This document shows positions 7,259 through 63,860 of a stretch of DNA of 64,000 nucleotides, one piece after another. How positions within the stretch are numbered: position 1 is the first letter of the stretch; each line of letters opens with the position of its first letter. The notes below the pieces were generated by a model that was given only the letters and a program-made list of their open reading frames with translations, ran no database searches and had not been told where the DNA came from. Source of the stretch: Arctopsyche grandis. Taxonomy: Eukaryota; Arthropoda; Insecta; Trichoptera; Hydropsychidae. Position numbers and translations under genes: made by a program. The stretch spans positions 41,583,986 to 41,647,985 of the forward strand of contig NC_135355.1 in NCBI RefSeq assembly GCF_051622035.1, read 5' to 3'.

Positions 7259-7460
7259 ATTTATTTATTTAACATATTAGCCACAGTGACATTACAGAGA
7301 TCTCCAACGCGTCGCTGTGGCCGGTCATTCAGTAATAATAACATGATAACAGTAATAATAACAATATTAACACAACATCATTAAAATCATAAAATCATAA
7401 AAAAAAAAAGAAAAACATAGATAAAGTAATAACAATCATTAATATTTATAATAGGCAAAA

Positions 7461-8018
7461 TCAACCACTGGCATTCCTCAATAACCACTCAACCAGATTA
7501 GTATATTTTATATTGAAGAGGTCAATTTCACCATAAATCCTGTTAAGCAGATATATCGCTCTAGATATAGGAGCCGTTGACAACATATTTGTGCGAGCCA
7601 CAGGAGGAACAAACAAATCACAATTTCTCAAGTCCCTGAATTTACAAGGTGCATTAAACCTAAATTCCTTTAGAACCTGAGGATTGTGTATTATCCCATT
7701 CAACAGCTTAAAAAAGTGTCTTCCCAGTAACATATTCCGACGAGACTCCAATGAGTTGAAACCTAACGCCCCTAATAGGAATGCACTAGGATATAGCCAA
7801 GGATAATAACCATACTGTTTCAAATAAAGATATCTGAGAAACCGTTTTTGGATTCTCTCAATCTTCAATGAATGAGTTATATGGGTAGGATTCCATATAA
7901 TAGAAGAAAATTCTAGAATACTACGTACTAAAGATTCATAAAGAATTTTAAGCACCAACGTACTCTGGAAAGGTTTGCTAACTCTTAGTAAGAATCCCAG
8001 CATTTTTGTTGCACGCAA
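7461..8018 (-). pseudogene. LINE J2 copy B C-terminal region
   Basis: This open stretch of 185 codons begins MRATKMLGFLLRVSK and ends at the natural stop after LLRNASG. It is the C-terminal segment found downstream of RT in this LINE family. It is the best reference for the broken copy A and for fragments at 24955-25140 and 49914-50390. Between 8186 and 8018 the frame has further stops, so it is not expressed as part of an intact ORF2. Confidence 0.8.
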
Positions 8019-8185
8019 ACAAATATTGTCTATTATTTAAATTGAAAATTATTCGAGAACAAGACCCCCAAATCACAATATGCATCTACAAACTTTAATT
8101 CAACACCACTTAGGCGATATGGATAAATCAAGCGATTTGAAGATCTTGTCACATTGAGAACACAGCATTTTTGAATGCTAAAAAA

Positions 8186-9797: not shown

Positions 9798-9805
9798 ATC
9801 TAGGG

Positions 9806-10085
9806 CGATATATCTGCTTAACCGGATTGCTGGTAAAATTGACCTCTTCAATATAAACTATGCTAATCTGGTTGAGTGGTTGTTGAGGAATGCCAGTGGT
9901 TGATTTTGCCAATTATAAATGTGAATGATTGTTATTTCTATGATTTTATGATTATAATGATGTTGTGTTATTATTATAAGTTATTATTATTGTTATCATG
10001 TTATTATTATTGAATGAATGGCCTCAGTGACGCGTTGGAGCTCTCTGTAATGTGACTGTGGCTAATATGTTAAATAAATAAATAA
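9806..10085 (+). mobile_element. LINE J2 copy A, 3' end
   Basis: After the hAT element the LINE continues with codons for RIAGKIDLFNINYANLVEWLL and the stop TGA, then a 3' UTR. The terminal hairpin at 10021-10061 has arms GCCTCAGT and ACTGTGGC around a loop with CGCGTTGG and TCTGTAATG, followed by (AAATA)n. Confidence 0.88.
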
Positions 10086-16756: not shown

Positions 16757-17304
16757 CCAGCAGAATTGACTAGTGGTTAGAATATAATGCTTTGAACAAA
16801 GTTGTCACGGGTTCCAATTCCACTGGATTCTGCTGACCAGACCTTGGATTTGTGACTTCAGGTCGATCATTTCATATCAGAGATTGCCAATTTATCTCAT
16901 TTTCATTGAAATGGTTCCAACAAATTGTCAACCTTACCCAAATCTAGAGTTTTCAGCAATCTCGAATTTCGCTGAATTGTATAAAATGCTGCAAATTCAC
17001 AATTTCAACCATAAATGTCTCTGTGGATGTTAATTGATACATATGTATTTACTGAATTTCGCTGCATTGTTTAAAAATGCATCAAATTAGACCATACATA
17101 CATACATATATGTCTCTGTGGATGTTAATTGATATGTACATATTTACTTTGCATAATACTAATAATACTTGTATAAAATCTTTGTACTTGTATATAATCA
17201 ATGTACTAATAATACTTGTATATAATCAATGTTTCTGACCAGGAATGTGCACTAGAGTTATCTGCTAGGTTTTTCTGATATAAATTAAAAATAAATAAAT
17301 AAAT
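16757..17304 (+). mobile_element. tRNA-derived SINE with internal duplication
   Basis: The head starts CCAGCAG, has a box A-like GACTAGTGGTTAG and a box B-like GGGTTCCAATTCC, then TTCTGCTG closing the acceptor-like stem. The shared body follows (TTGTGACTTCAGGTCGATC, then ATTGCCAATTTATC and GAAATGGTTCC). In this subfamily a unit ending GATGTTAATTGATA occurs twice (near 17026 and 17117), as in the copy at 58361. The tail is (AAATA)n. Pol III transcription and LINE-driven mobility are inferred from the family type. Confidence 0.8.
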
Positions 17305-17825
17305 GTGTATATCTACCAGCAAGACCTCACATTTAAACCCAATGCGCTTTTCCTAGCCAATTACGAACATCGATTAACAATTATATTTATACAGTATCAT
17401 AGACACATCTCTAGACAAATTTAATAATGCTAATATTTCTAGAAGTACCTATACACATTTTTCAGAGTGGGTAGCATATTTATTATTATAATGAACAAAT
17501 CCTGGAAGTTATAAACACGGATTTGCGAGAGACAGGAATAGGTTCCAAATTTTGATTGTTTGTATGAATTCGCATTGTATAAAATGCATATGCATATTGA
17601 TTTTTTTTATATCTATAAGTGCTCTCGTCGCTTTGAAGCGATCAAAAATGTTCGTCGACTTCAACTATTCGGATATCGAGTAGTAAATCAAGAGCTATTC
17701 GAATATTCGAATATATTCGAAAATTAAAAAAAAGGTAATTACATATAATAAAACATAATTTTAAGAAAATTAAAAAAAATATGTAAAACTAAAATACACA
17801 CGCATAAAATATAAGATAAAAATTT
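17305..17825. other. AT-rich DNA, no gene seen
   Basis: No coding or repeat signal apart from short AT words and TATTCGAATA-type palindromes near 17700. Confidence 0.35.
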
Positions 17826-20637: not shown

Positions 20638-20697
20638 ATAGGACTAGGAAAGCACATTTGGTTTACCTGTTAGGTCTTCCTGTATGAAATAAATATT
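20638..20697 (+). mobile_element. SINE 3'-tail fragment
   Basis: ACTAGGAAAGCACATTTGG followed by TACCTGTTAGGTCTTCCTG and AAATAAATATT is the SINE terminal hairpin and tail in plus orientation. Only about 60 bp remain. Confidence 0.6.
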
Positions 20698-22854: not shown

Positions 22855-22925
22855 TTTTTTTTTAATATTTTGCCTCAGTGACATTACAGAATACCACAAC
22901 GCATCACTGTGACCAGATATATATG
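22855..22925 (-). mobile_element. LINE 3' hairpin and tail
   Basis: In reverse complement this reads CACAGTGATGCGTTGTGG, TATTCTGTAATG, TCACTGAGGC, then an A-rich tail. Arms CAGTGA and TCACTG pair. Only the end of the LINE was inserted. Confidence 0.6.
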
Positions 22926-23194: not shown

Positions 23195-23310
23195 TTATAA
23201 GACTGGTGTGACACATTGGGGCAACCTCTCAGGTCACATTGATCATTAATTTGTTATTGTTATTCTTTATTCATTTTTTGTGTATTAATTAAAATAATAA
23301 AATAAATAAA
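23195..23310 (+). mobile_element. LINE 3' hairpin and tail, diverged
   Basis: GGTGTGACACATTGGGGC, AACCTCTCAG, GTCACATT gives a hairpin with the arms GTGTGAC and GTCACAT, followed downstream by (AATA)n at 23290-23310. Loop words fit the common design. Confidence 0.45.
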
Positions 23311-23565: not shown

Positions 23566-24880
23566 GAAAAAAACCCAAAGAAATTGAATCTGTGAATGGA
23601 TTTGATCGCATTGGAATATTTTTACCTTATTATTAAAATCCTTATATGTAGGTCTATGCTTATAATAAAATAAAAAAATAAGCACTGCATAGTAAAAGCA
23701 GGTTTTTGTTTCATTTTGCATACACATGTTAAATCAAAATTAGAACTGACCCAGTTCTTATGTATGTAAGTCAATAGTATATTTACATTTCATTGTTAGG
23801 GCCACTCGTCAGGGAGGCAAATGAGCTTTTAATACGTTTCCTTTATTTGAGAAAGGGCTCCCGTGCACTAATTAAACTGTCAGACCCACATACGGACAGG
23901 GGGGGGATAAAACTCTTTACAAAAAGCTAACCAGAAAAGAGATTTTCCGCTAAAGAATTGGGCACTGAAAGTTTTTTACATGCGTACTAAAACCTATATT
24001 ATTTTCTTTTCGTTGCGTAAAATCCTTTTGTACGAGATTTCGCCTTTACCTACCTACGTACGTACGTATGTCTACGTTTATACGTGATTTTATACATGTT
24101 TGTGTGTGTGTGTGTGTGAATAAAAGCTGTGTAACACTGTCGAAACCATTACCGAGTGAACGTGAAAGCTCGGTATCATCTCTAGAGGACTTCCACACGT
24201 TTGACTGGAAAACGATTCAGGCTGGAAAATGCGTGTGTGTGTGGAAAACGGCCACAGTACTTCGTGCACGTACGTTCTGTATAAATGACGGAAAATTTAA
24301 TTTCGAAATAGGGCTGTGTACAAATATCAACGATTATATGTATATTTATATTTATGTGTACATTTATTTTACACATATGTACATGCTATGGATTGAATAG
24401 AATATAAAGCTTTAAACAAAATCAAACCAGCCAATATTTTATTCTAATTATAAAACTTATCTCTTTTGCTTTAATTGACCTTACACGGTATATAACAAAA
24501 AGATTGTAACAATTTTTTTTTAATTTATCCAAAAAAGGACTATAGTATCTAAATATAATGAAATTAAAAATTTGTTTGTATCAAAACGTTTCTTAATGCA
24601 TCAAAAATATATAAATATATACATAAAAAAAAGTTTTTTAATGTATATATTTATATATTTTATGTACTATTTTAATTTTGTTCAATGTGAACTAAGAATG
24701 GGATTTATGGATTTTTTTTTTGTTTTTTACATTTTGTTCATTTTTTTCTGATGTATTATTTTTCTTTTGTTACTTTTTTTATTTTATTTTATCATGTTTT
24801 TCTGCTTTTGCTTTTTTCTTTTAAATTTCATATTTTACTTGTTTTATCTTATTTCATCTTTGTTTTTTCTTTATCAAATG
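23566..24880. other. Single-copy DNA with (GT)n
   Basis: Unique sequence runs from about 23780 to 24400, with a (TG)n run near 24098-24118. The frame 24068-24400 is created by the repeat and AT-rich sequence. Downstream to 24880 is T-rich. Confidence 0.35.
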
Positions 24881-24950
24881 TAGGCCATTGTGGTGCATTA
24901 GGTTCTTCCTGTAATGTCCCAATGGTTTTTTATATTAAATAAATAAATGT
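24881..24950 (+). mobile_element. LINE 3' hairpin and tail
   Basis: GGCCATTGTGGTGCATTAGG, TTCTTCCTGTAATG, TCCCAATGG then (AAATA)n. The arms CCATTG and CAATGG pair; the loop contains GCATTAGG and CCTGTAATG. The T-rich DNA before it may be its 3' UTR. Confidence 0.6.
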
Positions 24951-25275: not shown

Positions 25276-25499
25276 ACATACCTCTTCTATAATTTGTATA
25301 TAAAATTAATATTTTGAATAAAAATACCAATAATTTTATTTTACTACCGCCATCTATGTTTAAAACTAAAAACTGGATAAACGTCAGGCACTTTCAGAAA
25401 TTCAAATTTCAAACGCGTCAAAAACGTTTTTTTTTCACTGTAATGGCGGGGGATACATTTACTTCTATTGATGACCAAAATGAGCAATATGGCAAAGTA
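25276..25499 (+). mobile_element. MITE-V copy with conserved short frame
   Basis: The left TIR reads ACATACCTCTTCTATAAT. The leader carries AAACGTCAGGCAC and CAAACGCGTC. The short frame starts at 25443: MAGDTFTS then IDDQNEQYGKV. GTAAGC at 25497 follows as a potential donor. The right part is replaced by a minus-strand SINE, whose CCCCAATACGCCTTCC tail begins at 25501. Confidence 0.75.
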
Positions 25500-25500
25500 A

Positions 25501-25860
25501 GCCCCAATACGCCTTCCTGGCTATTTAGAATCATCGATATACAATTTTAGATTAATTTTAACGGAGCATCATAGATACATCTATGGATAAATTTGATTTT
25601 TTGTAAATCGCCAAATTTTAGGATACCGAAAAACTTGAAATTTGCGAGAAATAGGACAGGGATTATCAATTTTTTGGAACCATTACAATGAAATCAGATA
25701 AATTGGCAAACTCTGATAGGAAATGATCGACCGGAAGTCACGTATTCAAGATCTGGCCAGCAGCACAGCCAATGGATTGAGCTCGGGACCGCAAACTTAA
25801 ATGCATTACACAATTACCATTGATCTACGAAAAGATTTACCATTGATCTACTGAAAAGAT
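25501..25860 (-). mobile_element. SINE, minus strand
   Basis: From the tail side it reads CCCCAATACGCCTTCCTGGC, then AACCATTACAATGAAATCAG, CTCTGATAGGAAATGATCG, AGATCTGGCCAGCAGCAC. The head with a box B-like element lies at about 25770. It cuts off the MITE-V copy on its left. Confidence 0.7.
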
Positions 25861-28376: not shown

Positions 28377-28379
28377 TAA

Positions 28380-28740
28380 CCAGCAGTTTGGCTTAATGGT
28401 AGCGTATATATTTAGCACCACTGCGATCGATGGTTCGACTCGTCAAACTGCTGGTTAGATTTGGGGGTTTTGTGACTTTAAATCGATCGTTTCTCTATCA
28501 GAGTTTGCCAATTTTATCTCATCATTGTTGAAACGGTTCCTGAAAATTGGTAATAGATAATTTCCTGTTCTCACAAAAATATGTGTGTATAATTTGTAGA
28601 AGTTATGCACAGAAATCTGAAATCTATAGATGTCTTTATAATTTCGTGTTTATTATGTGTATAAAAATTGTAATAATAAGTGTGCACAAAATCTAAAAAT
28701 AATCCATAGATGTATCTATGATTATTATTTCTGTACTTGA
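28380..28740 (+). mobile_element. tRNA-derived SINE with clear head
   Basis: The 75-nt head at 28380-28454 folds like a tRNA: acceptor arms CCAGCAG (28380-28386) and CTGCTGG (28448-28454), box A TGGCTTAATGG (28389-28399), box B GGTTCGACTC (28432-28441). The body words TCGATCGTTTCTC, AGAGTTTGCCAATTTTATC and GAAACGGTTCC follow. The 3' end has been replaced by an LD-type LINE tail. Confidence 0.85.
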
Positions 28741-28769
28741 TTAATTATTATATTCTATGTTTATTGAAC

Positions 28770-28870
28770 GAACTGTATACGTTGTCTGTCCGTTCTCGTA
28801 CACTCGTCGCATTGGAGCGATCTGTTATGACGAGTGTACATTGATTGTAATAAAAATAAAAATTTAATTC
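28770..28870 (+). mobile_element. LINE D-type 3' hairpin and tail
   Basis: Perfect 11-bp arms GTACACTCGTC and GACGAGTGTAC enclose GCATTGGAGCGATCTGTTAT (28809-28828), followed by A-rich tail. It matches the end of LINE D at 47922-47972 and a copy at 51050. Confidence 0.8.
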
Positions 28871-32680: not shown

Positions 32681-33440
32681 CTCAATATATATTGAAAATG
32701 CTGTCATAGCTATTAGTATTTCATAATGCTGCCGGTATGTGTGAATGTGTCTGTACAGTTCAATATCGAATTTTGCTTTGTGACCTTCTTATATTCCTCA
32801 AATACATGGATAAAGTCATGGGTTGGTCACACCCGAATTTTGTATGTTGGCAAGCGAAAGCGCGGTGTATGGATATTTTGGTGTGCGCGAAAATGAAAAC
32901 AGGTGTTGGTATGAAAATAGATTGTTTTCAATAATAGGTCATTGGGTTGTGAATGATGAAATGTTGTTGTGATGTGTTTGTGGTTGAAAATTAGAAGAGA
33001 GTTTGCAAGCGTCAGGATGGCCGAGCGGTCTAAGGCGCCAGACTCAAGGTTCACCTTATCTGCTGTAAACGCAGAGCGAGCGGTTCTGGTCCTCTCTGAG
33101 GGCGTGGGTTCGAATCCCACTTCTGACAAATTCTTTTGTATTTTTTCTCTCTATTTTAATATAATTTATGTACATCCATACATATGTAAGTAAGAATCAA
33201 TTTTTTTTTTAAATTCGCTAGTAAAATTATAATTTCCCTAGCTCAAACAATAAAAAATTCACTTCTCAATGTTAGAAAGCGGATAATTCGTAAAGGAGTG
33301 TTTAAATGTTAAAGGCTTTAATCAAGGCTTTGTGATATTAAAATATAAAATTTATAAGAATTTAAAGTTGGCAAAAAAATATCAAACGAAATCAGAGGCC
33401 TTAACCTAACTTATGTAAACATACATACATACATACAAAC
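32277..33440 (+). repeat. Segmental duplication copy 1 (tRNA-Leu block)
   Basis: The block matches 41650-42690 almost base for base, including CCGGAAGT units, 330 bp upstream of the tRNA, the tRNA and about 170 bp downstream. It shares AACCTAACTT(A/T)TGTAAA at its far end with 43317-43332. Copy 2 has about 620 extra bp before that word. Copies are about 9.4 kb apart in the same orientation. Confidence 0.85.
33011..33128 (+). tRNA. tRNA-Leu(CAA) with intron, copy 1
   Basis: The acceptor arms GTCAGGA (33011) and TTCTGAC (33121-33127) pair with one G-T, and A33128 is the discriminator. The D arm carries the box A-like TGGCCGAGCGG. The anticodon is CAA at 33045-33047, and a 35-nt intron at 33049-33083 follows the base 3' of the anticodon, the canonical place. 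The long variable arm expected of tRNA-Leu and the T arm GGTTCGAATCC are present. A TTTT terminator follows at 33132-33136. The copy at 42391 is identical, intron included. Confidence 0.96.
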
Positions 33441-33560: not shown

Positions 33561-33627
33561 ATATAAAGTTATAATGTATAATGTAAGGTAAAATGCGCAT
33601 GAAATATTAATCATAATAAAGTATATA

Positions 33628-33753
33628 TTTATGACCAAAATGAGCAATATGGCAAAGTATGAAAACGATCGGATAAGAGATAAGAGATATAAAAAATTAC
33701 CACTTACACGAAAACAATGTGAACTGTATAAGAGGTATGTAATAAAAGTGGCA
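33628..33753 (+). mobile_element. MITE-V 3' fragment
   Basis: It begins inside the short frame (TGACCAAAATGAGCAATATGG), keeps GTATGAAAACGATCGG, and ends AAGAGGTATGTAATAAAAG, the right TIR form. The start codon and leader are missing. Confidence 0.7.
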
Positions 33754-34475: not shown

Positions 34476-35008
34476 ATTAGATACAACATAACTTCTTATT
34501 GAATACTTATCTCGCAGATAAAACTGACTGAGGAGATATACAGTGAAATGTCAGATTTGACATATTTGGCCAAAAATCAATATATATCGTGTATTACATT
34601 ACATGAAGCTAGACGCCAAATTTGAAATTTATATATACATATGAGAGTTAAAACTATAAATATTTCAATATTAGAGATAACGAGAACCTATTGAGCAAAT
34701 TTTATAAAATATAGAGTGAAGTATAGGCGTTTAAACAATTAAAATCTGAAATAGCATATCAAGGCGAAAAGGTTGAAGATAGATTATGGTAGCCTTACGT
34801 ACCGTCATAAACGTCACCGTATCCGAGATTCTGGATATTTGTTACGCATTGTATACGATATTTTATCTCCAACGTAATGGCAGACGATACATTTACGTAT
34901 ATTGATGACCAAAATGAGCAATATGGCAAAGTATGAAAACGATCGGATAAGAGATAAAAATGACCACTGACACGAAAGCCATGTGAAACGCAAAGGAGGG
35001 ATGTAATA
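34476..35008 (+). mobile_element. MITE-V copy, long form
   Basis: A leader of about 400 bp (from AATTAGATACAACATAAC) precedes the short frame, which starts at 34877: MADDTFTY then IDDQNEQYGKV and TGA. The GTATGA at 34931 overlaps the last codon. The 3' part ends AAAGGAGGGATGTAA, a variant right TIR. The same layout is at 36922, 39596 and 60785. Confidence 0.8.
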
Positions 35009-36921: not shown

Positions 36922-37412
36922 TTAACAATTAGATACAACATAACTTCTTATTGAATACTTATCTCGCAGATAAAACCGACTGAGGAGATATACAGTGAAA
37001 TGTCAGATTTGATCAATATATATCGTGTATTGCATTACAATTTATATATACATATGAGAGTTAAAACTATAAATATTTAAATATTAGAGATAACGATAAC
37101 CTATAGAGCAAATTTTATAAAATATAGAGTGAATTATAGGCGTTTAAACAATTAAAATCTTATATGGCCATATCAAGGCGAACAGGTTGGAAGACACGGG
37201 ACGAACGCTTATTAAACGTCAGGAAGGTTTACGGGCCCCGTTTTTAAAACGCGTTGTATACGATATTTTATCTCCTACGTAATGACAGACGAGACATTAA
37301 CGTGTATTGATGACCAAAATGAGCAATATGGCAAAGTATGAAAACGATCGAATAAGAGATAAAAATGACCACTAACACGAAAGACATGTGAAACGTAAAG
37401 GAGGAATGTAAA
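36922..37412 (+). mobile_element. MITE-V copy, long form
   Basis: The short frame starts at 37282 (MTDETLTC, then IDDQNEQYGKV) and stops in GTATGA at 37336. The leader matches 34476 and the 3' end reads AAAGGAGGAATGTAAAAA. Confidence 0.8.
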
Positions 37413-38841: not shown

Positions 38842-39145
38842 ACATCCCTCTTCTATAATTTGTATATAAAATTATTATTTTGAATAAAAACAACAATTTT
38901 ATTTTACTACCGTCATCTATGTTTAAAACTAATAAACAAACGATGTATAAACGTGAACGACTATCTCGCCGGGCAGATATCAAATGCGTCTTACACGATA
39001 TTTTTGCACCATCGTAATGGCGGAGGATCCATTTACTTATATTAAAAGACCAAAATGAGCAATATGGCAAAGTATGAAAACGATCGGATAAGAGACAAAA
39101 TTTTTCCTGAATTTTAATCGTAAGTGAAACGTAAAGGAGGTATGT
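38842..39145 (+). mobile_element. MITE-V copy, short form with both TIRs
   Basis: The left TIR ACATCCCTCTTCTATAAT and the right end AAAGGAGGTATGT are partly complementary, defining an element of about 304 bp. The frame starts at 39017 (MAEDPFTYI) and is shifted by one base before the DQNEQYGK words. GTATGAAAACGATCGG follows. Confidence 0.8.
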
Positions 39146-39595: not shown

Positions 39596-39885
39596 AATAT
39601 AGAGTGAATTATAGGCGTTTAAACAATTAAAATCTTATATCGCCATATCAAGGCGAACAGGTTGGAAGATACGGGACGAACGCTTATTAAACGTCAGGGA
39701 GATTTACTTTCCGCGTGTTTAAAACGCGTTTTATACGATATTTTATCTCCAACGTAATGGCAGACGATACATTAACGTGTATTGTTGACCAAAATGAGCA
39801 ATATGGCAATGTATGAAAACGATCGGATAAGAGGCAATTTTTTTTCCTGAATTGTAATCGAAAGTGAAGCGTTAAGGAGGTATGT
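39596..39885 (+). mobile_element. MITE-V copy
   Basis: The leader begins within ATAGAGTGAATTATAGGCG. The frame starts at 39757 (MADDTLTC, then IVDQNEQYGNV) and ends in GTATGA. The right end is TAAGGAGGTATGT. Confidence 0.8.
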
Positions 39886-41639: not shown

Positions 41640-43350
41640 GATTTTTTTCGTCGCGAAAAAAATCAAGTATAATTCATGTATCAATGTGATGAAAATAAAA
41701 AAAAATCACTAAATTTAATGAGCCAAAAGTGGGATTTTTTCTTCTTAGAAAGGCCAAAAATGTTGTCGCCACGATTCTATCCACACTCCTGAATGTGTCA
41801 AGCTGAAAATTTATTATTATATTTTGTATGTACTAACTTAGAGCTGATAAGGTTTTGGTCAGAATTCATAAACCGGAAGTAGTATTTTTTTTTTAAAACA
41901 ATATTTCATTATTTTATTTTGACCTTTTAAATTATTTTAATCTTCTTGCTTTCTATTGTGTATAATACTGATAGTAATTTTAAGTAATAAAAAAATTTTG
42001 AACAAAATACAACAACCGGAAGTAGAACTTTTGTCTTGTGCAAGTTTCCATACATTTGCGCTCAATATATATTGAAAATGCTGGCATAGCTATTAGTATT
42101 TCATAATGCTGCCGGTATGTGTGAATGTGTCTGTACAGTTCAATATTCATTTTTGCTTTGTGACCTTCTTATATTCCTCAAATAGAAAGATAGAGTCATG
42201 GGTTGGTCACACCCGAATTTTGTATGTTGGCAAGCGAAAGCGCGGTGTATGGATATTTTGGTGTGCGCGAAAATGAAAACAGGTGTTGGTATGAAAATAG
42301 ATCGTTTTCAATAATAGGTCATTGGGTTGTGAATGATAAAATGTTGTTGTGATGTGTTTGTGGTTGAAAATTAGAAGAGAGTTTGTAAGCGTCAGGATGG
42401 CCGAGCGGTCTAAGGCGCCAGACTCAAGGTTCACCTTATCTGCTGTAAACGCAGAGCGAGCGGTTCTGGTCCTCTCTGAGGGCGTGGGTTCGAATCCCAC
42501 TTCTGACAAATTCTTTTGTATTTTTTTTCTCTATTTTTCAAATATGCTATATTTAAGTACATACATATGCAAGTAAGAATGATTTTTTTTAAATTCGCTA
42601 GTGAAATTATAATTTCCCTAGCTCATACAAGTAAAAATTCACTTATCAATGTTAGAAAAGCGGATAATTCGTAAAGGAGTGTTAAAGTGAATTTAAGAAG
42701 TTATAAGGGAACAAAAGTGTCGACAAAAGGTTTCCAGATAACTTAAATTTGAATTCATTCTCGAATTCTCACCTGCAAAACATTCAAACATAGCTTTAAT
42801 TGTAAAAAAATTGGCATTGAATGATAAGAAATTTGGATGTGACCAACCCACGATTTTATCTATGTATTTGAGGAATATAAGAAGTATAAAAACAAAATTC
42901 GATTATGAAACATACATACACGTTTACACATACTGGCTATGAGAGCATTTTGGTTACAAATTGAATGTAGGGAAACTTACCCAAGACAAAAGTTTTACCT
43001 CCAGTTGTCTGATTTTGTTAATAAAAATTATCACTTAAAATTACTATTAAAATTATTAATATTGTAAATATAAAATAACTATTAATATTGTAAATATAAA
43101 ATATATATAAATAATTTAAAATAAAATAACTAAGTGTTGCTTTAAAAAAATGAAAAATAAAAAATAAAAATATAAATTTTCAGTTTGGTACATTCAGCGG
43201 TTTGGAAAAAATCATGTGGTCACAACATTTTTGACTTTTATAAGAGGAAAAAATCTAAGTTCAGGTTAATTAAATTTGATGATTTAATTAAATTGTTAAA
43301 TTAAAATCATGTCTTAACCTAACTTTTGTAAATATTTATGTATGTATATA
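41640..43350 (+). repeat. Segmental duplication copy 2 with inverted arm
   Basis: The part 41650-42690 matches 32277-33310. After it, 42830-43300 is a diverged reverse complement of 41715-42210 in the same block (for example TGTGACCAACCCACGATTTT against the TGGGTTGGTCACACC words upstream). The tRNA therefore lies between inverted arms of about 470 bp. Copy 1 lacks the downstream arm. Confidence 0.8.
42391..42508 (+). tRNA. tRNA-Leu(CAA) with intron, copy 2
   Basis: Identical over all 118 nt to the copy at 33011, including the 35-nt intron (42429-42463). The anticodon CAA is at 42425-42427. T-rich termination follows at 42512-42516. Flanks differ at scattered sites, so identity of the gene is higher than that of its surroundings. 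Confidence 0.96.
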
Positions 43351-43680: not shown

Positions 43681-43755
43681 TTTATTTAAAGTTTGGACCA
43701 TTGTAGCATTACAGGAATTCCTAATGCGCCACAATGGTCAAAAATATAACAAAAA
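43681..43755 (-). mobile_element. LINE 3' hairpin and tail, minus strand
   Basis: Reverse complement reads GACCATTGTGGC, GCATTAGGAATTCCTGTAAT, GCTACAATGGTC, then AAATAAATAAA. The 12-bp arms pair with one G-T. Confidence 0.7.
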
Positions 43756-45989: not shown

Positions 45990-46390
45990 CAATATATAAA
46001 ATTAGTCGATAACTCTAATTTGGGGGTATTTGTGACTCCAATTAATTGATCGATTCTTATCAGAGTTTGCCAATTTTATCTCATCATTGTTGAAACGGTT
46101 TCTCAAAATTGGCAAAAAAATCATCTTTTCCGTTGTCACAAATCTTCTGTATTTATTGTATGTATAATTTGTAAAAATTATGTATAAAATCTAAATCTAT
46201 AGATGTCTCAATGGATTAATTCTGTAATTAATTCATTAATTAATTGTTATTTCATGTTCTTCAGCTTCTGCAAATACAGTGATTAATGTAATAATAAAAT
46301 GCTGCATTGTTTGTAATTAATTGTCCAGAAAGGCGCATTGGGGTCTTCCTGTTATATATGTATGTATATTTGTAAAATAAAATAAAATAT
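45990..46390 (+). mobile_element. SINE lacking its head
   Basis: Starts near AACTCTAATTTGGGGG, then TTTGTGACTCCAATTAATTG, CAGAGTTTGCCAATTTTATC, GAAACGGTTTCTC. The end carries GTCCAGAAAGGCGCATTGGG, GTCTTCCTGTTATA and (AAAAT)n. Confidence 0.7.
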
Positions 46391-46886: not shown

Positions 46887-47885
46887 ATAAGGGTTAGACA
46901 ACAGAGATATTCGGCTAATTGGTAATCTCTACTGGAATCAGACGACCGTAGTACTTGTCAAACGTGAAACAACAGAGAGCGTAAAAATATTGAAGGGAGT
47001 TCGGCAAGGATGCGTGCTATCACCGCTACTGCTTAATTTATATTCCGAAAATATTATTGCTGAACCCTTGGAAGACATAGATTCCGGAATAACAATAAAT
47101 GGCACAGTAATTAATAACATTCGGTACCCGGATGATACGGTACTACTGACTACTAACTTCAACGACTTACAAGCAACACTGGACGCAGTTGTTATGCATA
47201 GCTCTAGAGCGGGGTTGACGCTGAATATAAAAAAAAAAACAAAATGGATGATATTCAGCAAGTCGACGCGCAATACGGTCAAGTCTCGTATACAAGTCAA
47301 TAACAATATGGTGGAAAGAGTGGATAGTTTTAGATATCTTGGGTGCTATTTGGGTAAAACGTGTGAAACTAAACAGGAAATTCGCGTTAGATTAGAGCAA
47401 GCAAGAGCTGCATTCTTGAAATTGAAAAAAGTCCTAACCACACGTGATCTCAGCATAGCACACCGACTGAGACTTCTACAATGCTACGTTTTCAGCATCC
47501 TTCTGTATGGGACACAAACATGGACCCTGACAGATGCCGCGTGCAAAAGCTACAGGCATTTGAGATGTGGACACACAGAAGGATGCTGAGAATCTCATGG
47601 ATGGCGCGTCGTACCAATGCCGAGGTGCTTGCCCTGATGGGAAAACATGTCGAAGTGCTTAAAAGTGTGAAAAGGCGTAAATTGGAGTATGTACTTCGGA
47701 CATGTGATGCGGAACGAAAAATACGATCTCCCGCGCTTAATAATCCAGGGGAAAGTCGGGGCAGGAGGAAAACATTGTGGCTAAAGAATCTTCAGCAGTG
47801 GTACGACCTCAGCACCCAAGCACTATTCCGAGCAACCATTGACAAAATAGGAATGGAACATCTAGTTGCCGACGTTCTGGGAGGA
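46887..47885 (+). mobile_element. LINE C (RT remnant)
   Basis: The coding part begins LDNRDIRLIGNLYWNQ, runs through KGVRQGCVLSPLLLNLYSE, and NNIRYPDDTVLL at the catalytic site, where codons 47125-47136 give YPDD instead of YADD. It continues IVNNN-like RVDSFRYLGCYLGKT, FSILLYGTQTWTL, and in another frame RRMLRISWMARRTNAEVL. A one-base shift near 47540 splits it. The Ala-to-Pro change next to the Asp pair and the frameshift imply inactivity. The endonuclease and 5' end are missing. It is of the GVRQGCVLSP..YADDTVL type common in insects (RTE-like or related). Confidence 0.88.
46990..47589 (+). pseudogene. LINE C reverse transcriptase, first frame
   Basis: This frame covers the palm and thumb from GVRQG to the frameshift. 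After about residue 185 it leaves the true frame (CKSYRHLRCGHTEGC is not family sequence). The true frame continues in 47540-47885, with QKLQAFEMWTHRRMLRISW and the WLKNLQQWYDLS word near its end. Confidence 0.85.
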
Positions 47886-49035
47886 CATTTTTTTATTTTT
47901 TTTTTATTTTACAAAATCAATTAATCAAGCACACTCGTCTAACAGATTGCTCCAAAGCGACGAGTGTGCTAAAAAGATTAAGAAGTACAATAGGAAAAAA
48001 TACAAGTTAAATAAACAAATTATATATACAAATATACAAATTAAATAAGGAAAGGATAACTAAATAAAACATGAAATCATAATAAAATCATAATTAAAAA
48101 CACTAACTCAACCTTTCTAAATGGTCGAGACTTCCATAACTTAGGAAGTGGTGCAGAGAATGAAGAGAGACGTGACAAATGTCAATGGCACCATCCAGTG
48201 AATTTAAGAAACGGAGGCCGCGAGGAATGGAAGAATAACTAAATGCCACAGTTCTAGCCAAAGGAGTGTGAAAAAGGGGACGATGGCGGGTCCATATCAC
48301 ACTCTCTGGAGCATGAAGGCCCAACTCAGCCAGGATAGACGGACAGGAGATACAGCCTCTAAATATGGAAAACAAGAACTTGATGAGGGCAACACTCCTC
48401 CTGTGGTCAAGAGAAGTGTAGCCGACCATACCCATGACGAATTTTGAAGGAAATAAGTATGGGTAAATCCCATATTGCTCCTTATAAAGCAGTCTGAGAA
48501 ATCGGACAAGTTCAAGCTTCACAGACTTAGTGTAAGGATTCCAAATCATAGAGGCGTATTCCAAGATACTCCTAACTAGATCATTGTACAGCAATCTCAA
48601 AACAGCGGGATTTTGGTAGTGTCGAGAATTACGAAAGACAAACCCAAGCATTCGTGAGGCAGAGCAACACACAGAGTCGATATGAACAGATAAATTTAGG
48701 TCACTCTGGAATGCAACCCCAAGATCAACAGTTGAATCGATCCAGTTCAATAAAAAGTTACCAACAAGATATGGAAAGGTACGATCGGGGTGGATCTGGA
48801 TCTGGAGTAACACATAACCTTGCACTTGGAGACATTAAGAGGCAAACAGTTGGTTAACGACCAATCATGAAGAGCATTAAGATCATCTTGTAAAAGCTCA
48901 CAAGAACGTTCAGAATCGAGACTCAAATAGAGCTTTAAATCATCAGCGTATAGTGAGAAACGACAATTGACCAGTTTAGAACTAATATCATTTACAAATA
49001 AATTGAATAACATGGGCCCTAGGTTAGAGAAGAAG
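47886..49035 (-). mobile_element. LINE D, RT fragment inserted at the LINE C end
   Basis: Minus strand: SNLGPMLFNLFVNDI, YADDLKLYLSLD (catalytic codons 48950-48939), CLPLNVSKCKVM, then after a frameshift near 48785 PYLVGNFLLNWI, SILEYASMIWNP, and ends at a stop near 48103. The 3' hairpin (arms AGCACACTCGTC / GACGAGTGTGCT, perfect 12 bp) lies at 47929-47971, followed by an A-rich tail. It is 5'-truncated exactly before SNLGP. The YADD box is intact. Confidence 0.88.
48103..48825 (-). pseudogene. LINE D C-terminal frame
   Basis: About 230 family codons from PYLVGNFLLNWIDSTVDLG to the stop, similar in order to J2 (RMLGF, LVRSILEYASMIWNP, EQYGIYPYLFPSKFVMG, IPRGLRFLNSLDG). J2 and D are therefore related lineages. 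The first dozen codons (MQGYVLLQ...) are out of frame and not part of the protein. Confidence 0.85.
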
Positions 49036-49098
49036 AATAATAAAGAAGAAGAAGAATACTTCTTCTTCTTGTATGGCAAATGAAGAAGAAGAAGTATG
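49036..49098. repeat. (GAA)n / (TTC)n tract
   Basis: GAAGAAGAA and TTCTTCTTC runs alternate and can fold back. The second run, after TATGGCAAA, may be the GAA tail of LINE C displaced by LINE D. Confidence 0.7.
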
Positions 49099-49835
49099 TA
49101 CTTAGCACTGGGTTGGGCAAAATCCGGTACTCGTGTAATTGATAAGTGAGGTACATAACAGTACGTAGATAAAGTAACGACAGAGTCGCGTTGCTATTGT
49201 CCTGCGCGTTTGGACAGTATGGACGTTACGTGCCTTTTAATTAAAAAAAATGATTTGTTTTTCAGCGAACAATGACTATAATATGTAATACGAGACGCGT
49301 TTAATTAGCGTCGTCGTTCTCACTTTGCGGCTTTTCGCCGGAATAAATTAGTCATCAATCGTGATAAATATTCATGAGACCGCTTTCAGCGTCGACTCTC
49401 GTGATTTTTCACACAGAACAAAAATTGATCAAGATATCCATCTCTCGGGACCAGATAGCAAACATTTCCATGTGTCTCTTTGTGTAACGACCCACCCACC
49501 CGTCATCCAAACAAAAACGTGTGCGATATTACTTACCAGCGGGGAATACGGATGGTGAGTTAGTATCCGGGGAGTGGGTGGGTGGGTGGGAAAATGAAAA
49601 GGTAACTTGCCTCCACTCGTTTTTACCGGAAAACTCCGAATTGTGGAATAAAGCATAGCCGCCGTGAAATATTCGACTCGCGTAGCGATTTACGCGTTTG
49701 CGGCCGATAGATCGATTCGACGTCCATTCCCGACTCCCTTTCCCGCTTTTTTTCACCTGAAAAATAGGATGACCGTATCTTTGTGGATGTTCAGCTTTAA
49801 AACCTACTCCACAAAAAAGACGTAGTGTTCTAAAA
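49099..49835. other. Single-copy island
   Basis: Unique and GC-richer (49150-49760). Several overlapping frames on both strands (49361-49909), none with a domain. Confidence 0.35.
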
Positions 49836-51044: not shown

Positions 51045-51125
51045 GTGTATAGTACAATCGTCGCATTGGAGCGATCTGTGATGACGAGTGTACTTTGATT
51101 GATTGAATAAAAATATTGTAAGATG
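51045..51125 (+). mobile_element. LINE D-type 3' hairpin and tail
   Basis: AGTACAATCGTC, GCATTGGAGCGATCTGTGAT, GACGAGTGTACT: 12-bp arms with one mismatch, then AATAAAAATA. Confidence 0.78.
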
Positions 51126-54684: not shown

Positions 54685-55140
54685 CCAGCAGCATAGCTCG
54701 GACGTTAAGCTTCTGCTTACCGTCAAGAAGGTGCCGGGTTCTATCCCTGAATGAAAATGAATTTTTCAGAGTATGCTGTTGGTCAGACCTGGATTTGTGA
54801 CTCCAGGTTGATCGTTTCCTATCAGAGTTTGCCAATTTTCTCTGATTTCATTGTTGAAACGATTCCCGGAAAAAAAATTGGCTAAAAATCCTTCCTACCT
54901 ACTATGTCACCACTATTTTGAAAAATTTGATTGATGTACAATAAAAATTTATGTACAATTCATAGATGTCTCGTTAATTTGCGAGTTTTTTCAGTGTCTC
55001 GCAATTCAACGACTTATAATAAAAATGCTGTATTTGTATTTGTAATTGGCCAGGAAGGCGCATTGGGATTTACCTGTAAGGCCTTCCTGGTATATATGTA
55101 AAATAAAATAAAATAAAATAAAATAAAAATAAAATAAAAT
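54685..55140 (+). mobile_element. tRNA-derived SINE, nearly complete
   Basis: Head CCAGCAGCATAGCTCGG, box B GGGTTCTATCCC, a repeated arm TATGCTGTTGG, the body GTGACTCCAGGTTGATCG, GAAACGATTCC, and the 3' hairpin with perfect 10-bp arms CCAGGAAGGC / GCCTTCCTGG (55049-55091) around GCATTGGGATTTACCTGTAA. Tail (AAAAT)n to 55140. Confidence 0.85.
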
Positions 55141-55499: not shown

Positions 55500-55688
55500 C
55501 AGCATTAATATTTTTGATTTTATTTTATTTTTACATTATTTTATAAATATATGTATATACCAGAAAGGCTTGACAGGAAGACCCCAATGCGCCACCTAGA
55601 CAATTAATTACAAACTAGGCAGCATTTTACTAGATAAATCACTGTATTAATTTGAAGAACACGAAGTTAACAATTAATTAATAAACTA
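55500..55688 (-). mobile_element. SINE 3' end, minus strand
   Basis: Reverse complement carries GGTGGCGCATTGGGG, TCTTCCTGTCAAGCC, TTTCTGG then the A-rich tail. Confidence 0.65.
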
Positions 55689-58360: not shown

Positions 58361-58815
58361 ATACTAGTGGTTAGCATAAAATGCTTTGAACAAAGTGGTC
58401 ACGGATTCAATTACCACTGGTTTCTGCTGGCCAGACCATGGATTTGTGACTTCAGGTCAATCGTTTCCTTTCATAGTTTGCCAATTTGTATGATTATCAT
58501 TGAAACGGTTCCAACAAATCATCAACTTTGCAAATTTTGAATTTTCAGCCATCTTGAACTTCGCTGACGTGTATAAAATGCTGCAAGTTTACAAATTTGA
58601 CCAAAGATGTCTCTGTGTATGTTAATTGATATGTATTTACTGAATTCTTTAAAAATGCTGCAAATTTACAAGTTTGACCATAGATGTGTCTGTTAATTGA
58701 TATGTATTTACTTTGTATAATACTAATAATACTTGTATCACATGTACAATGCTTCTGGCCAGGAAGCTGCATTGGGGTTATATTTTAGGCCTTCCTGGTA
58801 TAAATAAATAAAAAT
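58361..58815 (+). mobile_element. tRNA-derived SINE with internal duplication
   Basis: Box A region ACTAGTGGTTAGC, box B-like GGATTCAATTACC, body, the duplicated GTTAATTGATATGTATTTAC unit (58620 and 58690), and the hairpin CCAGGAAGCTGCATTGGGG..AGGCCTTCCTGG. Same subfamily as 16757. Confidence 0.82.
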
Positions 58816-60784: not shown

Positions 60785-61320
60785 AACAATTAGATAAAAC
60801 ATAACTTTTTATTGAATACTTATCTTAACATCTCAATTAACAGCGCAGATAATGCTTAGTGAAGAGATGTAGTTCTAGCTGTGAAATGTCAGATCTGACA
60901 CATTTGGCCGTAAATCGATATAGAGGCTATATGCCATTACACGAAACTATTTGAAATTTATATATAATATATATGAGAGTTAAAACTATTAATATTTATA
61001 TATGAGAGATAATGATAACCTATAGAGCAAATTTTATAAAATATAGAGTGAAAAAGAAATAGTTATATGCGTTTAAGCAATTAAAGCAAGATGACGGCGA
61101 AAACGGATATTCATCAATAAAACGCCGAAGCGAGCGCAGTAGGCGAACAATGCGACCGAACATTTTGGGTGATTAACGTCAGGCACATCTTCGTCGGAGA
61201 ATTTTCAAACGCGTCTTAAACGATATTTTTTCACCATCGTAATGGCGGATGATACCTTTACTTACATACATATATTGATGACCAAAATGATCAATATGGC
61301 AAAGTATGAAAACGATCAAA
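60785..61320 (+). mobile_element. MITE-V copy, long form
   Basis: Leader matches 34476. The frame starts at 61242 (MADDTFTY), is interrupted by an inserted ACATACATAT-type stretch, and the remainder encodes DDQNDQYGK before GTATGAAAACGATC at 61304. The right TIR is lost. Confidence 0.78.
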
Positions 61321-61969
61321 ATTGGATCACAAAACTTTGACAGGTAGGAATTTCATGTAACTAACACAGTGACGATAGTAAAAAGCTTGTAAAAAGACCA
61401 TATATGATATAAGTGTTTACTTTAAAGATGTACGTAAATTGCATTGAACATTTTTGTAGACCTTTCAAACATTAACATCGGCAATTGAAAACTTTATTAT
61501 AAAAAATCATACATTTATGATTCCAACTATTCCTTAGGAAAAAAAACATATATCAATTGAAAGAGTTGTTTTTTTATGTTTTTTTCTAGATAGACAACGT
61601 TCATCGAAAACATATTCCATCTCCAGCACTATCTTTCTCTCTATCCCCGAGACAATTGTAGCTGGAAATGAACTAGTTTTTCCTCATCGCGATAGTCGCG
61701 GAAAAACCGCACGAGGGGCTTTCAATCCCCTTCGGGAAACTGTTATTTACAAATGAAAGAGATCTACATGAAAGATTACCATAAATTGGCCTATATCAAC
61801 GTATGATTTACATGATACAGCTTAATAATACATACATATACTAAAACATTATTTTATCGTACACATACATACATACATACAAATACGTATGTATTTTAAG
61901 CCTGCACAAGACATATTTCTTATGCCGTATCATGTATAATACAATACATTATGTATACATATATCACAT
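61321..61969. other. Single-copy DNA with (CATA)n
   Basis: A unique GC-richer spot lies at 61620-61745. (ACAT)n at 61862-61882. No gene. Confidence 0.35.
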
Positions 61970-63404: not shown

Positions 63405-63860
63405 CTTTGGTTTTATTTTATTTATTTATTTACAAATATAACAGGAAGGCTTAACAGGTATACCCCAAATGCGCCTTCCTGGTCCACATAATTATTACAT
63501 AGATACATGTAAATCTAAACAATATCTGACATGTATGGTCAGATATTACAAACATCGTATTAATACGATAAATAACAATGAATAACTTTCATGTAACAAT
63601 ACGAATTTTTATATTCGATAAACAACCACAGAGACATCTATGGTGAGCAATATGGCGAAACCTAAGATATAACAATAACTAAAGGTTCGCAACAGAAAAT
63701 TGGGAAGGAAACGCCAAATTTTACAGGAATCGTTTTAATGAAAATCAGAAAAATTGGCAAATTCTGATAAGAAACGATCGACCTTGACAAACCAAGGTCT
63801 GGCCAACAGCGAGACTTAGCGGGAATCGAACTCGTAACATCAAGTACGAAATAATATTCT
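63405..63860 (-). mobile_element. SINE, nearly complete, minus strand
   Basis: Tail and hairpin at 63418-63485 (complement: ACCAGGAAGGCGCATTTGGG, TATACCTGTTAAGCC, TTCCTG), body to 63800, and head with box B-like GAGTTCGATTCCC (complement of 63818-63830). Confidence 0.78.

Follow-up and report, generated by a model that had tools for sequence, protein, structure and literature searches.

The recognition of LINE RNA by the element's own protein has been worked out on few elements. In the eel, UnaL2 and UnaSINE1 have in common a 3′-terminal stem-loop followed by a short repeat; the internal loop of the UnaL2 stem has an unpaired C and a U–U mismatch, both of which are needed, and the element combines a GGAUA loop with a (TGTAA)n tandem repeat (PMC5135761). 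In the zebrafish L2-clade elements ZfL2-1 and ZfL2-2, a protein region between the endonuclease and the reverse transcriptase (RT) is described as binding the 3′ stem-loop, with the loop as the specific determinant and stems that can be swapped, and four LINEs that are on average 60% identical in RT are reported to share almost one stem-loop (PMC4176376). Since that report describes a near-identical stem-loop in four LINEs, the conservation of a hairpin across diverged LINEs is not new. Among insect SINEs, HaSE1/HaSE2 and PxSE5 are described with an RNA-gene-like head, a LINE-like 3′ tail and a central domain common to families with different tails (PMC3272025, PMC8010984).

Here we analysed a window of 64,000 nt from Arctopsyche grandis (G000:C1:41583986-41647985; assembly of 475.7 Mb in 189 contigs) and the hairpins at the 3′ ends of its LINEs and SINEs. 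As in the eel pair, LINE and SINE have the hairpin in common and a short repeat follows it, and a C with a facing U·U in the internal loop resembles the unpaired C and U–U mismatch of UnaL2; unlike in UnaL2, the kept part here is the internal loop with a 4-bp helix, whereas the tip varies and the repeat is AT-rich (PMC5135761). As among the LINEs described with ZfL2 (PMC4176376), the hairpin is kept across diverged LINEs, but here the identity between LINE types is 42–45%, and a conserved apical module is combined with stems that differ through compensated changes. The SINEs resemble HaSE1/HaSE2 and PxSE5 by description, not in body sequence, and the main texts on those families do not use the words stem-loop or hairpin (PMC3272025, PMC8010984). 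No description of the present hairpin was found in titles and abstract openings of the open-licence PMC literature, which is weak evidence of absence. A LINE/SINE tail hairpin is thus known in kind; what stands out is an apical module kept separately from drifting stems across diverged LINEs.

Hairpin sites and architecture

We built a covariance model, R1, from a seed of 44 hairpins, 14 of them in the window. R1 matched all 12 ends at which the initial annotation had placed stem-loops, with E values of 5.6e-16 to 4.6e-8 that are flattered by the membership of these sites in the seed; the stem-loops thus stood at every listed end (E ≤5e-8), two of which (22855 and 23200) belong to one nested region. 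Five window sites were added, comprising two further seed members, 20639(+) and 55556(−), and 46320(+), 17234(+) and 17312(−) (Table 1). Outside the seed, 12 matches had E <1e-3; nine of these lie in a 200 kb sample, where three (L014, L028:7125 and L019:7380) closely copy rows of the seed. Later counts excluded the two weakest matches, L021:7854 (E 0.033) and L026:7020 (E 0.39), and so covered 42 of the 44 model matches in the window and the 200 kb sample. At E <1e-6 the density was 25 hairpins per 200 kb, or about 59,000 genome-wide by extrapolation.

Table 1 Hairpins and the elements that carry them in the window (E, covariance model R1 unless stated; z, folding against shuffles)
Feature	Position	Strand	Observations
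LINE-C 3′ end, hairpin type C	7277..7325	-	E 8e-11; z -3.9
LINE-C, C-terminal RT protein part	7461..8036	-	42% to LINE-A, 45% to LINE-D; alone without Pfam match
Hairpin type C and LINE-C fragment at 9799-9900	10017..10065	+	E 5e-11; tblastn 88% over 34 aa
Hairpin type B on SINE, weak and decayed	17234..17282	+	E 4e-4
Hairpin type B, weak and decayed	17312..17361	-	E 7.5e-4
Hairpin type B-like, absent from first list	20639..20687	+	E 5e-8
Hairpin type C, decayed; nested SINE-rich region	22869..22917	-	E 5e-9
Hairpin type F, decayed	23198..23246	+	E 5e-8; resembles L026:1535
Hairpin type D-like	24880..24929	+	E 5e-11; z -3.6
SINE: A-box/B-box-like head (by eye), central domain, hairpin A, AT-rich tail	28379..28860	+	~490 nt homology with other copies; ends approximate
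Hairpin type A on SINE	28794..28842	+	E 5e-14; z -4.1; SINE central domain upstream
Hairpin type D	43694..43742	-	E 2e-13; z -5.7
Hairpin type B on SINE, 3′ arm lost	46320..46356	+	E 6e-4
LINE-A 3′ end, hairpin type A	47926..47973	-	E 1e-12; z -5.9
LINE-A, 5′-truncated RT part	48103..49193	-	two frames, 48103-48834 and 48747-49193; RVT_1 E 4e-10 on 48747-49193
Hairpin type A, SINE central domain upstream	51048..51096	+	E 1e-12
Hairpin type B on SINE	55045..55094	+	E 6e-16; central domain 96%
Hairpin type B, absent from first list	55556..55605	-	E 9e-9
Hairpin type B on SINE with another head	58754..58802	+	E 6e-11; decayed
Hairpin type B on SINE	63437..63487	-	E 7e-12

The hairpins follow one design: a family-specific outer stem of 11–12 bp, a 3×3 internal loop (5′-CNU/UNA-3′), a 4-bp apical helix with the pairs U-G, R-U, G-C and R-Y in a strand-by-strand reading of the sites, and a tip of 4–5 nt. 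The loop words given in the initial annotation are present, but they do not make up one plain loop; they form the internal loop and the apical helix, and their spelling departs from that given at 24881 and 43690 (GCATTAGG) and at 47929 (GCTTTGG). An AT-rich simple repeat mostly follows: an AT-repeat word was present in the 60 nt downstream of 38 of the 42 hairpins, compared with 18% of random places.

Ten hairpins folded with z values of -3.0 to -8.2 and, among 200 shuffles each, none folded as well for nine of them and two did so for the hairpin at 63437. The minimum-energy fold was the design, or differed from it by one closing pair, in six of seven representatives, and we rejected a plain loop in favour of the 3×3 internal loop and 4-bp helix on this basis; the exception, LINE-C, prefers a variant fold, and its window copy carries a C·A stem pair. 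A CATTA/TAATG inner stem was likewise rejected, as its inner pairing breaks in types with TTA, TGA or TCA. RNAalifold returned the outer 11 pairs only; the case for the apical helix is made by folds of single sequences together with one compensated pair. Four core letters are invariant in the 44-row alignment A2, an invariance partly imposed by the choice of a seed gathered with patterns that fixed part of the core, so that core conservation is partly built in; the hairpin at L026:1535 deviates at one of the four.

Stem types and compensated changes

Five stem types were seen, with the arms GTACACTCGTCG/TGACGAGTGTAC (A), GCCAGGAAGGCG/NGCCTTCCTGGT (B), GCCACAGYGACG/TGTCACTGTGGC (C), ACCATTGTGGCG/TGCYACAATGGT (D) and ACCATGGTGTCA/TGACACTATGGT (F). 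The last is that of L026:1535, which was found by the model outside the seed; its decayed relative at 23198 is a seed member. Types were assigned by manual reading of alignments, and a script that scores the arms apart agreed in 42 of 44 rows. A basal CCA/TGG is common to stems B, C, D and F, which differ in mid-stem with compensation; judged from these sequences, this suggests common descent with mid-stem changes.

In A2, 89.4% of cells are paired, and changes on both sides occur in 11 of the 12 outer pairs and one of the four apical pairs (R-Y). The covariation score was 0.660; shuffled alignments gave 0.231, and sliding the structure gave no more than 0.216. On three of five measures none of 500 shuffles did as well; the other two, the numbers of pairs with both-side changes (12) and of pair types (36), were not outstanding, with 34 and 151 of the 500 shuffles as high. 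Because copies within a family are clones, we repeated the analysis with seven representatives. Both-side changes were found in 10 of 16 pairs (shuffled mean 4.8), the score was 0.732 against 0.264 for shuffles, and none of 500 shuffles reached the observed value of any of the five measures, bearing out the initial proposal that stems differ by family with both arms changing together. The representatives include two of type D and two of type F and hence amount to about five independent stems, with stem A represented by the SINE since the aligner shifted LINE-A by one base and LINE-A was excluded. Thousands of copies are therefore not thousands of covariation events. As to the further proposal that covariation marks a selected structure, the arms do stay complementary across types, but the independent evidence for selection comes to about five stems.

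LINEs and SINEs that carry the hairpin

The RT fragments upstream of hairpins A, C and D are 42–45% identical to one another. LINE-A had at least 151 genome matches (150 of 11495 first-look candidates were scored). Among 20 close-copy loci, five of which (L038 and L040–L043) are near-identical and share one stretch of contig C2, the hairpin was found downstream of the RT in 18, within about 150 nt in 16 and at 739 and 972 nt in two; at L035 and L048 there was none within the flank examined. On contig C1, an exact A/A hairpin lies 123–142 nt downstream in 10 of 21 LINE-A protein matches. The Pfam domain RVT_1 was found for LINE-A in the window (48747-49193) and at L037, whereas the window frame 48103-48834 gave no Pfam match. 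The C-terminal parts of LINE-C and LINE-D, taken alone, also gave no Pfam match and are linked to LINE-A by their 42–45% identity.

A strict pattern for the C hairpin had 389 genome matches against 0 when reversed, and a looser pattern 538 against 3. The looser pattern was present at the expected place in 17 of 36 LINE-C protein matches (8/19 on C1 and 9/17 on C2) and had no match there in the other 19; all six long-frame LINE-C copies on the two contigs (829–972 aa) were without a matching hairpin at the expected place. For LINE-D (L018:7455-8201), the hairpin lies 257 nt past the stop codon and is found again at L025. An RT fragment at L004, 35% identical to A, 39% to C and 45% to D, had an end without a clear hairpin. 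With LINEs A, C and D all carrying one architecture, the proposal that several lineages share the loop while their stems differ is supported.

A different RT fragment (RVT_1) at 46891-47924(+) in the window is 29% identical to one in L024 and is followed closely by the 3′ end of LINE-A, which runs the other way. The five near-identical C2 loci (L038, L040, L041, L042 and L043, at 30.8–34.3 Mb) are 99.8–100% identical over 1558 nt, with LINE-A either next to or within a LINE-D-like element, in both orientations, which represents a recent amplification.

The SINEs are about 450–550 bp long and consist of a head with A-box and B-box words, a common central domain, a variable body and the hairpin at the end. 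Among the 42 hairpins of the window and the 200 kb sample, the central domain was found within 700 nt upstream in 20, RT in five and both in none. One SINE superfamily, defined by its central domain, bears either tail A, as in LINE-A, or tail B. The stem of tail A is that of LINE-A (CACTCGTC/GACGAGTG). In alignments, three SINE tails matched LINE-A at 54/75 (A), 53/76 (A′) and 48/78 (A″) positions, and other SINE/LINE pairs matched at 38–49 of 69–84, including 47/72 for SINE-A with LINE-C and 49/72 for SINE-B with LINE-D′; this margin is modest, so the common stem is the main point. SINEs with stem B were the commonest in the sample. By manual reading, 21 of the 42 hairpins are of type B. The SINE central domain accompanies 14 of them, and in a tblastn search with the LINE-A, LINE-C, LINE-D and 46891 proteins, which would miss a more distant RT, none of the 21 had RT within 700 nt upstream. 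The pairing of SINE stems with LINE stems suggested initially thus succeeded for stem A (SINE-A with LINE-A), whereas no LINE carrying stem B was found.

The A-box and B-box words of the heads were read by eye only, and six loci gave no Rfam tRNA match at E 0.1. Target-site duplications were not convincing in any of 19 SINE copies, two of which had exact repeats of 8–9 nt, both AT-rich; the head pattern of the script may have missed some SINE starts. Heads of different sequence (for example at 28380-28460 in the window and at L004) often keep the complementary ends CCAGCAG ... CTGCTGG, so that the SINE head too may keep a closing stem. A module of repeat family D7 occurs in the window at 25464-25523, 33624-33683, 34898-34957, 37303-37362, 39039-39098, 39778-39837 and 61271-61330; read on the other strand, it looks by eye like a portion of the SINE central domain, and it perhaps marks a further SINE family.

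Proposed recognition by LINE proteins and other readings

We interpret the hairpins as the 3′-terminal recognition hairpins of a group of stringent-type LINEs, also carried by SINEs that exploit these LINEs, with a probability of about 0.85. Recognition itself is inferred by analogy with other LINEs, whose proteins bind such hairpins (PMC4176376), and here would be performed by the LINE protein. In the element RNA, the apical module would be the specific address gripped by the protein, and the stem would count only as a helix whose sequence could drift provided that both arms change together; target-primed reverse transcription would then start within the adjacent repeat, and SINEs would gain mobility through their copy of a LINE tail. 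The pattern of kept and changed positions suggests that the internal loop and apical helix are the part that is read and the stem sequence the part that is free. A lead comes from a LINE-D-like frame before the RT at L038:2796-3608(−), a single frame with PPW-x18-W and many basic residues, in which the spacing of P-W, 18 residues and W matches P324 W325 ... W344 of the ZfL2 tail-binding region (PMC4176376).

A bolder extension, which we regard as possible but rather doubtful, is that one apical RNA module serves as a common address for several diverged LINE proteins within one genome, every SINE tail with the module being served by the whole LINE community and no SINE having to depend on one partner. 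Stems would then be private, drifting spacers, 'stringent' recognition would be stringent per LINE group rather than per element pair, and the lack of a LINE with stem B would not prevent SINEs with that stem from persisting. With LINE types that are 42–45% identical, an extrapolated ~59,000 hairpins and SINEs with at least two tails, this one genome is a natural experiment in which 'one SINE, one LINE' and shared service are directly testable against each other.

An alternative function for the hairpin, in RNA 3′-end formation, stability or export or in a DNA-level step rather than as an RT address, is unlikely but the most plausible of the other explanations, and the position before an AT-rich repeat would also suit 3′-end processing. 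Against it, LINEs and Pol III-type SINEs differ in how their transcripts are made and ended, but both depend on the LINE protein. The ZfL2 experiments, as described, place recognition in the LINE protein (PMC4176376).

Somewhat less probable again is that the hairpins reflect recent common copies only, with one tail spread among elements and stems that pair by descent under no continuing selection. Within families the arms are indeed clonal: genome-wide, matched inner arms numbered 827 (A/A), 5494 (B/B) and 3962 (D/D), and arm swaps A/B, B/A and C/D were 0 each, as descent would also predict. Such counts show co-inheritance and are not by themselves evidence of selection, and we rejected them as proof of it because clonal families yield the same outcome. 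Letter similarity between LINE hairpins is also modest, with scores against shuffle means of 13 against 6.4 (A-C), 10 against 6.8 (A-D) and 13 against 6.2 (C-D), none exceeding the best of 300 shuffles, and an 18-nt C-D core at chance (5 against 4.2). As read from these alignments, the likeness between LINE hairpins is one of architecture with scattered kept letters. Against copying alone, the architecture persists although the LINE-A, LINE-C and LINE-D proteins are so diverged, and stems B, C, D and F share their basal CCA/TGG yet differ in mid-stem with compensation. For A-C and A-D, alignment of the 3′ UTRs before the hairpin also gave no improvement over shuffles, and for C-D only a slight one (40 against 33.3, sd 3.6).

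Chance inverted repeats and a chance word in AT-rich DNA were assessed with the motif GCATTGGN{2,10}CTGTNATG, which had 2919 genome matches against 15 for the reversed pattern (~195×). Two scans of viral contigs with a like motif gave 22 and 17 loci, 36 distinct, none with a stem: 4–9 of 12 flanking positions could pair in the best of three registers, compared with 11–12 of 12 at 14 motif matches in the own genome. Short stems are common at the 30–36% GC of the window, but with this excess over the reversed motif, folding better than shuffles and the poor pairing at viral matches, AT-rich coincidence is extremely improbable, and recognition hairpins of LINEs and their SINEs remain the preferred reading.

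Two other structured sequences were noted. A long inverted repeat at L005:1992-2130 matches miRNA families below gathering scores on both strands and is probably a foldback element, not a miRNA. In the window, two 118-nt Rfam tRNA matches (33011-33128 and 42391-42508) have equal scores, and a copy of repeat D9 starts 403 nt before each, so they are probably one duplicated stretch.
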